Positions 2,551-40,001 of a DNA stretch of 40,069 nt are shown in pieces; the first letter of the stretch is position 1; every line of letters begins with the position of its first letter. Source of the DNA: Anaerolineae bacterium (GTDB lineage: Bacteria; Chloroflexota; Anaerolineae; Aggregatilineales; Phototrophicaceae); assembly GCA_016789005.1 (NCBI GenBank), contig JAEURA010000328.1, positions 1-40,069 of the forward strand, given 5' to 3'. Below the pieces are notes generated by a model. It searched no databases. It had not been told where the DNA came from and was given only the letters and a program-made list of their open reading frames with translations. Position numbers and translations under genes: made by a program.

Positions 2551-2570
2551 AGTGTGTCTGCAAACGCACT
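2551..2570 (+). repeat. Short inverted repeat with TGTCTGCAAAC core, just after hutG
   Basis: AGTGTG and CGCACT flank the loop (one G-U pair), seven bases past the hutG stop. The core TGTCTGCAAAC (2555-2565) recurs at 36255-36265, and its inverted form minus the last base (TGTCTGCAAA on the minus strand) lies at 36350-36359. It may be a relic end of that element. It could also serve as a weak terminator. Confidence 0.4.
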
Positions 2571-2600
2571 AAAGTGAAGTCTCGAAAGAAATCAAGGCAC

Positions 2601-2664
2601 GGGAGACCCGGCGGGTCTCCCCTACAACCAACGTGCCGTAGGGGCGAGCCGGCGGCTCGTCCGT
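2601..2664 (+). repeat. Pair of GTAG-type REP palindromes (BIME-like)
   Basis: Two hairpins in opposite orientation. The first has a 9-base stem (2601-2609 with 2613-2621, loop GGC) and ends in CTAC at 2622-2625, which is GTAG on the other strand. The second starts with GTAG at 2638 and folds through 2645-2650 with 2654-2659, again with loop GGC. Stem, loop and GTAG foot match the array around the RAYT gene at 39285-39848, so these look like dispersed copies moved by that transposase. Confidence 0.8.
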
Positions 2665-2690
2665 TGAGAAGATGCGAGACATGGCTTAGA

Positions 2691-18740: not shown

Positions 18741-18774
18741 GGGCAGGGGGTGGCGGTCCACCTCCTGCCCCTAC
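18741..18774 (-). repeat. REP-like hairpin between the binding-protein and permease genes
   Basis: A 13-base stem with one mismatch (18741-18753 with 18758-18770, loop CGGT), ending in CTAC at 18771-18774, i.e. GTAG at the foot on the minus strand, like the REPs at the RAYT locus. In the minus-strand transcript it stands between the binding-protein stop and the dppB start. Such hairpins often stabilise the upstream message so that binding protein exceeds permease. Confidence 0.55.
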
Positions 18775-36246: not shown

Positions 36247-36368
36247 TCAGAGGCTGTCTGCAAACGGCTCACCTCACCCCATTTCGCTGCGCTCAACCGC
36301 CCCTCTCCAATTGGAGAAGGGTAGGGGGTGAGGTTGTGTGAAAACCGGCTTTGCAGACACGCTCTCAG
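36247..36368. mobile_element. MITE-like palindromic element
   Basis: About 122 bases bounded by inverted ends around TGTCTGCAAA (36255-36264 and, inverted, 36350-36359). Inside is a nested CCTCACCCC...GGGGTGAGG palindrome (36272-36280 and 36325-36333) holding an imperfect CCCCTCTCCAA/TTGGAGAAGGG hairpin (36300-36321). The core ends match the short repeat at 2555-2565 and the inner part matches 2691-2758. It encodes no protein. It fills the 325-base gap between the BMP-protein gene and the ATPase gene. Confidence 0.55.
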
Positions 36369-38939: not shown

Positions 38940-39237
38940 CGACCTACCGGGTCGCCCCTACGGGGGTCTTCGCGAACGGGGATCGTAGGGGAGAGCCGCC
39001 GGCTCTCCCGCTTGGTTGTGCCGCCGGCTCGGCTCCTCCGCGTGGATCGTGCGGTGGATTCTGGTTGCGGAGGTGGGCGACCCACCGGGTCGCCCCTACG
39101 GCGGTCTTCGCGAACGGGGATCGTAGGGGAGAGCCGGCGGCTCTCCCGCTTGGTTGTGCCGCCGGCTCGGCTCCTCCGCGTGGATCGTGCGGTGGATTCT
39201 GGTTGCGGAGGCGGGCGACCCACCGGGTCGCCCCTAC
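38940..39237 (+). repeat. Tandem 138-bp units carrying GTAG-type REP pairs
   Basis: The 360-base space between the deaminase and the RAYT gene holds two 138-base units and the start of a third (the CCGGGTCGCCCCTACGG core starts at 38947, 39085 and 39223). Each full unit carries two REP hairpins in opposite orientation. CTAC-footed ones are at 38940-38961, 39075-39099 (9-base stem, loop ACC) and 39213-39237. GTAG-footed ones are at 38985-39010 (loop GCC) and 39123-39148 (loop GGC). GTAG at the palindrome foot is the known recognition mark of RAYT transposases. No gene is present in this stretch. Confidence 0.9.
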
Positions 39238-39284
39238 GGTGGTTGCGGCGAAAACGGACTGGAAACTATCACTGGGTACGAACA

Positions 39285-39848
39285 ATGCAACGACAATACC
39301 CTCAACGAAAGCCGCTGCGTCTCAAAGACTATGATTACCGGCATTCTGGGTTGTATTTTGTCACAGTTTGCACTTACCTGCGTGCCAGTTTGTTTGGTGT
39401 AGTACAGAACGAAGCTGTCGCCCTGAATTGGTGGGGGAGGATCGTTGAACAGGAGTGGCTGCGGTCAGGAGATGTGCGGACCGGCGTCTATTTGGATGCT
39501 TATGTCGTCATGCCAAACCACTTCCATGGGATCATCGGGATTGCCGATGGCGCGCGGGATGGGAGTGCTGAGCCGAGTCAAACGAAAGATACAGGGGAGG
39601 ATGGGAACAAGTTCTCTGCGAAGGGCGGCGCAAAAAGCGGTTCCCTGGGTGCGGTAGTCGGGCAGTTCAAATCGATGGCGACGAGACGTATTTGGCAGAC
39701 CGCCGGCGCTGAAGCTCGTCCACTGATCTGGCAGCGCGGTTTTCACGATCACATCATCCGCAATGAGGAAGACCTCAGTCGCATACGTCAGTACGTGACG
39801 GCGAATCCAGCCCGATGGCGGGAAGATTCCTTATTCTCGGACGGATGA
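39285..39848 (+). CDS. REP-associated tyrosine transposase (RAYT, Y1/IS200-like)
   Basis: A 187-residue Y1-type HUH nuclease. It starts at the ATG 39285 (MQRQYPQRKP); the frame continues upstream only through REP DNA. Motifs: the RAYT N-terminus LRLKDYDYRHSGLYFVTVCT, HUH motif MPNHFHGII (H79, H81), the middle helix LGAVVGQFKSMATRRI, WQRGFHDHIIRNEEDLSRIRQY with nucleophile Y170, and the usual ending VTANPARWRED. Family enzymes cut single-stranded REP DNA near a GTAG and are thought to spread REPs as small non-autonomous elements. The active site looks intact. REP pairs lie on both sides of the gene (38940-39237, 39865-39938). The insertion of about 25 residues after the HUH motif (DGSAEPSQTKDTGEDGNKF) is low-complexity. 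Confidence 0.93.
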   Translation: MQRQYPQRKPLRLKDYDYRHSGLYFVTVCTYLRASLFGVVQNEAVALNWWGRIVEQEWLRSGDVRTGVYLDAYVVMPNHFHGIIGIADGARDGSAEPSQTKDTGEDGNKFSAKGGAKSGSLGAVVGQFKSMATRRIWQTAGAEARPLIWQRGFHDHIIRNEEDLSRIRQYVTANPARWREDSLFSDG

Positions 39849-40001
39849 TACAGGTTGGGTGATCGGGCGACCCGCCGGGTCGCCCCTACGGTGGTCTTCG
39901 CGCATGAGGGTCGTAGGGGAGAGCCGATGGCTCTCCCGCCAACCGATGGCTCTCCCGGCAACCATTGACGCACCCGTGCGGATGATACAGGTTGGGTGAT
40001 C
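39842..40001 (+). repeat. Direct repeat at the RAYT 3' end
   Basis: The 23 bases starting CGGATGATACAGG occur at 39842-39864, across the RAYT stop codon, and again at 39979-40001, an offset of 137. That is nearly the 138-base period seen upstream of the gene, so the same kind of unit duplication happened on this side. Confidence 0.8.
39865..39938 (+). repeat. GTAG-type REP pair downstream of the RAYT gene
   Basis: A CTAC-footed hairpin at 39865-39889 (9-base stem 39865-39873 with 39877-39885, loop GCC) and a GTAG-footed hairpin at 39913-39938 (loop GAT), with an extra half-copy (CCGATGGCTCTCCCG) near 39943-39957. Together with the upstream array they flank the transposase gene on both sides. 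Confidence 0.88.

Follow-up and report, generated by a model that had tools for sequence, protein, structure and literature searches.

Does a RAYT gene set among GTAG-footed REPs account for the many copies of those REPs found elsewhere in the same genome? In E. coli, TnpAREP binds the foot and stem of its REP on single-stranded DNA and cuts or rejoins beside the REP. Mechanisms of REP dissemination were called poorly understood in a 2021 TnpAREP study (PMC8266576). Here, we describe a RAYT locus near the right end of a 40,069-nucleotide window, which is contig C90 of a draft genome of 5.45 Mb and 352 contigs (the host genome, G000), and the REPs dispersed through that genome, through a close relative (G025) and through the wider family. 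The host belongs to the Chloroflexota, as the original prediction from the sequence had supposed. With a probability of about 0.72, the locus at 38.9-40.0 kb is a REPtron, and most dispersed REPs have spread as the core of a CTAG-inserting, TA-duplicating DDE-type MITE.

The RAYT gene and its hairpin array

The hairpins of the RAYT locus, the gene itself and one further hairpin are as follows.

18741..18774, minus strand: single-copy GTAG-footed hairpin with a 13-bp stem, outside the dispersed family
38940..39215, unstranded: 138-bp tandem duplication (38940-39077 and 39078-39215, 97% identical), with one tail-to-tail heterodimer of 23-bp spacer per unit
About 38940..38961, minus strand: degenerate REP (CGACC..GGGTCGCCC CTAC), left partner in the first 23-bp-spacer dimer
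38985..39009, plus strand: REP GTAG-GGGAGAGCC-gcc-GGCTCTCCC
39075..39099, minus strand: REP GTAG-GGGCGACCC-ggt-GGGTCGCCC
39123..39147, plus strand: REP GTAG-GGGAGAGCC-ggc-GGCTCTCCC
39213..39237, minus strand: REP GTAG-GGGCGACCC-ggt-GGGTCGCCC, 47 bp upstream of the RAYT start
39285..39848, plus strand: RAYT / TnpAREP gene, 187 aa, with HUH motif H79/H81, catalytic Y170 and a disordered loop at residues 87-118
39865..39937, unstranded: downstream tail-to-tail heterodimer, spacer 39890-39912
39865..39889, minus strand: REP GTAG-GGGCGACCC-ggc-GGGTCGCCC, 16 bp after the RAYT stop
39913..39937, plus strand: REP GTAG-GGGAGAGCC-gat-GGCTCTCCC

GTAG-footed hairpins had been reported on both sides of the gene, with loop triplets that vary, and both observations hold: there are seven hairpins in total, six perfect and one degenerate. 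Each of the six has a perfect 9-bp stem, a 3-nt loop and the GTAG foot on one side only; a pattern with the foot at both hairpin ends was discarded after 0 matches in the host genome. Pairs at the locus are tail-to-tail, with GTAG inside and a 23-bp spacer, and the hairpin closest to the start codon stands alone. Chance is excluded by two counts: GTAGG-footed hairpins in the window number 9 against 0-1 for permuted feet, and the 5.45-Mb genome contains 157 matches to the strict REP pattern (GTAGGGG-N4-CC-N3-GG-N4-CCC) against 0 to its reversed control. The hairpin at 18741, previously grouped with these REPs, was rejected as a family member, being present once in the whole genome. Two further dimers with the spacer family of the RAYT array lie at the end of contig C220. 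The right ends of G000:C90 and G000:C220 (L164) both break inside a RAYT-type REP array, and C90 may lie next to C220 in the chromosome.

The gene had been taken for an apparently intact Y1 HUH transposase, and it is one: the open reading frame at 39285-39848 is intact and H79, H81 and Y170 are present, the two histidines invariant and the tyrosine nearly invariant in an alignment with 43 relatives. The HUH-to-Y distance is 89 aa; the median in subclass 2.4 is 88 aa (PMC6006769). Profile scores fall below the curated cut-offs (NF047646, 70.7 bits, E 1.2e-19, cut-off 80 bits; PF01797, 21 bits, cut-off 23 bits), which are annotation thresholds and not defining biological features, and PF01797 covers class 2 only partially (PMC6006769). 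An AlphaFold model (pLDDT 84.8) was compared with the PDB using Foldseek, for which the best match was 4er8, the E. coli TnpAREP-REP complex (E 7.7e-7, TM 0.62), followed by IS200/IS605 TnpA. Of the E. coli residues that contact GTAG (W94, Q95, H101, R104 and E100; PMC6006769), the first four are conserved in the window protein as W149, Q150, H156 and R159, and E100 is replaced by D155. By sequence and predicted fold the protein is a RAYT/TnpAREP that groups with subclass 2.4. In the tree it falls on a long branch within a clade of 48 flank-type RAYTs (support 100/98), almost all other members of which come from another genus of the same family, so that horizontal acquisition of the gene is possible.

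We interpret the locus as a REPtron, in which a subclass 2.4 TnpAREP within an array of GTAG-footed tail-to-tail heterodimer REPs would most likely bind the GTAG foot and folded stem on single-stranded DNA and cut or rejoin beside the REPs. It resembles published subclass 2.4 REPtrons (Quentin et al., 2018; PMC6006769) in its HUH-Y1 protein with an HUH-to-Y distance of about 88 aa, in REPs that flank the gene, in its patchy distribution, and in the GTAG foot and a stem with three basal G-C pairs. Those systems also contain in-frame REPs between HUH and Y, as do many relatives here; the window gene, in contrast, has no internal REP, and most dispersed REPs of its genome lie inside a MITE. In-frame REPs inside RAYT genes were accordingly set aside as a novelty, having been published for subclass 2.4 (PMC6006769). 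Within our own sample, GTAG hairpins occur inside the gene in 90 of 167 RAYT homologues from many phyla (L047, L056, L060-L062, L072, L074, L088-L163), for the most part in the stretch from the HUH motif to the SLGxIIxxFK helix; the reading frame of forward copies is never the one in which TAG would be a stop. Three other PF01797 matches in the host genome (G000:C138:3853-4206, G000:C92:5950-6300 and G000:C77:13936-14265; two of them strong, at 128-138 bits) are presumably IS200-like transposases unrelated to the REP array.

A genome-wide search for further REPs, suggested in the original prediction, returned the 157 strict copies, mostly intergenic. Among 97 sampled REPs, 91 are intergenic, though 83% of the sampled DNA is coding; the 70 that could be placed lie between tandem (38), convergent (30) or divergent (2) genes, a placement that is approximate since genes were called by a simple codon model. 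Variation at stem positions is accompanied by compensating changes. Many genomes of the family have their own stem version (TTTGCC, CGAACC, CGATCC etc.), again with compensating changes and with a constant GTAGGGG foot, and most family RAYT homologues have such hairpins beside or inside the gene. A homologue of the window RAYT is present in 59 of 98 family genomes, as are GTAGGGG REPs (59 of 98), and REP counts are associated with RAYT presence (odds ratio 11, Fisher p=4e-7, 98 family genomes, uncorrected for phylogeny). The possibility, raised beforehand as one that would count against a RAYT-driven system, that REPs are equally common in relatives lacking the gene is not what was found, but seven genomes without a detected RAYT (G045, G061, G065, G070, G073, G078 and G096) do carry at least five REPs each.

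The element carrying most dispersed REPs

The two hairpins at 2601-2664 had been described as being of the same design as those beside the RAYT. They are indeed a GTAG-footed REP pair, but one that lacks the features of the RAYT dimers and forms part of a larger element, here called M1, at 2570-2688.

2570..2688, plus strand: window copy of M1, consisting of TA, a 112-bp core with tip bases, and TA, with imperfect inverted repeats CTAAAGTG..TCTCG / CGAGACATGGCTTAG
2601..2625, minus strand: left REP of the M1 core, GTAG-GGGAGACCC-gcc-GGGTCTCCC
2638..2662, plus strand: right REP of the M1 core, GTAG-GGGCGAGCC-ggc-GGCTCGTCC, separated from the left REP by a 12-bp spacer
Ends of the M1 element: AAGYGGAATCTYG/CATGGCTT

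Tail-to-tail dimers with an exact 12-bp spacer number 72 in the host genome, 10 in G025 and 0 in 96 other genomes. Alignment of 61 dimers revealed conserved arms flanking the hairpin pair, with conservation breaking off sharply at about -32 and +88. The mobile unit of these dimers is not the REP pair, as a core that is 112 bp long in nearly all of 56 copies extends past both hairpins. Its tips read CTAAG..CTTAG or CTAAAG..CTTTAG, and TA stands on both sides in 35 of the 56 copies, 21 of these in a C..G context. M1 is thus small and non-coding, with imperfect terminal inverted repeats (CTAAG(N)..TCTCG / CGAGACATGGCTTAG), and near-identical 120-bp copies lie at unrelated places. Copies differ in how many A/T bases stand at the tips, an unusual feature in a precise DDE element. 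Both arms accompany 53 of 110 sampled REPs and one arm a further 20 (at least one arm in 73), leaving 37 with none. All REPs flanking the RAYT are without arms, dimers of their type (about 23-bp spacer, no arms) are rare in the host genome, and some armless copies may be RAYT products.

Some M1 elements abut directly (L026, L239 and L262), sharing a CTTAAG or CTTTAG junction. The window also has, at 36249-36365, a third short element with inverted repeats, which has ends AGAGCGTGTCTGCAAA and contains no REP; further copies are at L024, L026, L064, L240, L260 and L275, and the element often lies directly beside M1 copies.

Insertion junctions could be read by comparison with G025, whose flanks are 83-97% identical at most tested loci and which carries M1 but no RAYT of the window clade. 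Five sites are cleanly empty (L254, L252, L234, L033 and L251), with C-TA-G in G025 against C-TA-[element]-TA-G in the host, and at L226 the element is absent with a small scar. The C301 insertion is common to both genomes, as is L245 with an internal deletion; unrelated sequence occupies L225 in G025, and at L231, L264 and L257 the alignment is partial or the sequence rearranged. Five or six of roughly nine informative sites are therefore empty in G025. The alignments and these comparisons together establish the boundaries of M1, its constant length, the TA on both sides and its polymorphic empty sites.

The empty-site junctions are the signature of an IS630-type MITE and not of Y1 transposition. 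TA duplication at CTAG is an IS630 hallmark (Tenzen and Ohtsubo, 1991, as cited in PMC2170065), and known IS200/IS605 elements are without terminal inverted repeats and larger duplications (PMC2817692). As a formal alternative, an element bearing its own terminal TA and inserting next to TA is indistinguishable from one that duplicates TA, and a site in G025 from which the element had been precisely excised could look as if it had never been occupied. On the reading we favour, most dispersed REPs have spread as the core of a non-autonomous DDE-type MITE, whose core measures 112 bp and which inserts at CTAG with duplication of TA. An IS630-type transposase acting in trans most likely moves this element, which probably arose when a MITE captured a REP dimer. 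The extra left ends of M1 that were inspected held REP or REP-like sequence, besides nested and truncated copies, and no transposase gene; no autonomous transposon sharing M1 ends was recovered from these ends or from a further 0.4 Mb, and no IS630 transposase or autonomous element with M1 ends in about 0.7 Mb of the genome read directly.

Two alternatives give the RAYT a larger part. In one, which we consider improbable, the RAYT copies bare REPs or REPINs by way of single-stranded intermediates, and all dispersed copies derive mainly from this activity. This would suit a RAYT that sits among REPs of the same foot and stem frame, the correlation of REP abundance with RAYT presence over 98 genomes, and the inverted REP pair, the unit proposed for REPINs (PMC3116915). 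The dispersed unit, however, is a 112-bp element that includes arms beyond the hairpins and is bordered by TA at each end, the 23-bp-spacer dimer is rare, and G025 has 12-bp-spacer dimers and no RAYT of this clade. The same facts support the original prediction of a live or recently live REP-spreading system only in part: a RAYT in a GTAG array, with abundant intergenic REPs whose counts track its presence, agrees with it, but most dispersed copies sit in a TA-duplicating MITE, the dimer type of the RAYT itself is rare, and the relative has the element in the absence of this RAYT clade.

The other alternative, to which we give an equally low probability, treats M1 as an extended REPIN that the RAYT cuts outside the arms, with single-strand joining at CTAG and a terminal TA borne by the element. 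In its favour, almost every inspected copy keeps REP dimer and arms together, the arms plus tips make up a long imperfect inverted repeat, and TnpAREP cuts at CT dinucleotides on either the 5' or the 3' side of the REP (PMC8266576). Cuts after CT at both ends would nevertheless miss the observed ..CTT-TAG junctions by one or two bases, symmetric tips at a palindromic CTAG target suit a DDE dimer, and neither RAYT gene of the host genome is flanked by M1 arms. M1 does share with Pseudomonas REPINs (PMC3116915) a repeated unit of two inverted REPs with a short spacer, but it reaches about 28-32 bp past each of the two hairpins and is bordered by TA at either end. A third alternative, in which the REPs are kept as terminators or mRNA stabilisers, move little and are inherited mainly vertically, would fit their strong gene-end bias (68 of 70 between tandem or convergent genes) but is very improbable given the near-identical 120-bp copies in unrelated places and the five or six of roughly nine informative sites that are empty in G025 between flanks 83-97% identical, which contradict it unless the G025 sites are precise excisions.

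A second MITE and complete heterotypy

The host genome has a second RAYT with a REP family of its own.

G000:C285:12526-13017 (L064): second RAYT, from the internal-REP clade, with GTAGGGAC-type dimers on its flanks, one of which has a 12-bp spacer

This gene was considered as the driver of the GTAGGGG REPs and rejected, its flanking GTAGGGAC REPs having 2-nt loops. The REP family at its flanks (GGACGAYGC / GGACAACGC) recurs as heterodimers within a second MITE of 115-123 bp, which has ends GGGTGCATTTCA/TGAAATGCACCC and 7-9-bp target duplications. Copies of this MITE were found at L014, L029, L256 and L319 in the host genome and at L308 in G025. The flanking duplications are legible in three of four copies (TCAGGCG, GACCGAA and GAACTGC, the last in G025) and were seen in another copy too. 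As this second MITE carries the REP family of the other RAYT, REP dimers have entered MITEs at least twice, and the REP-in-MITE architecture arose at least twice.

All 67 dimers examined pair two different stems, one with a CCC apex (or near) and one with a GCC apex (or near). This complete heterotypy spans spacers of 11, 12, 22 and 23 bp in both spacer orientations, and is partly due to shared descent. When folded with ViennaRNA, 38 of the 67 real dimers form two separate hairpins and simulated homodimers always form one long hairpin, a result that is no more than suggestive for simple folding as a cause of heterotypy, the DNA parameters possibly not having been in force in the fold. The GTAG families described by Di Nocera et al. 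(2013; PMC3733652), among whose listed hosts are Chloroflexi, likewise have a GTAG foot, a 9-bp stem, a short loop and a heterodimer preference for which there was no obvious explanation; here, in contrast, heterotypy is complete (67/67 dimers), making this a clear case of the preference noted in 2013.

Relation to known systems and implications

Subclass 2.4 REPtrons, including those with in-frame REPs (PMC6006769), and a GTAG REP inside a MITE (PMC5896051) are already published. For a REP within a MITE, one precedent was found in the open-access literature, QMITE2 of Coxiella burnetii (PMC5896051), a MITE with terminal inverted repeats containing a GTAG REP, with 7-11-bp duplications and truncated copies that resemble bare REPs. 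The present genome differs in having two unrelated MITEs, each carrying a tail-to-tail heterodimer from the REP family that belongs to a resident RAYT, and in the empty sites for the first of them, M1, in a close relative. MITEs derived from IS630/Tc1-mariner elements (such as Correia and RUP; PMC2817692) are, like M1, small, with inverted ends, TA duplication and a CTAG preference, but the core of M1 is a REP heterodimer and no parent IS was found in the stretches read. New here are the resolution of the junctions, the finding that each of the two REP families has a MITE shell of independent origin, and the fact that the dimers beside the RAYT genes are, in contrast, bare.

In the host, a TA-flanked MITE whose insertion junctions are directly readable carries, as its cargo, the majority of copies of a RAYT-type REP, and the other REP family has a MITE of its own; consequently, REP abundance beside a RAYT does not by itself indicate that the RAYT moves them. 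A close pair of genomes with filled and empty sites makes the question of REP spread testable. One further, rather unlikely, possibility is a partnership between the RAYT-REP system and a DDE-type MITE, in which heterodimers would have been repeatedly captured since RAYT cutting at internal REPs aids the copying of the MITE. Were this true, REP populations would grow through MITE transposition with the RAYT array as the source of REP sequence, and complete heterotypy would be selected, preventing the two hairpins from folding into one.
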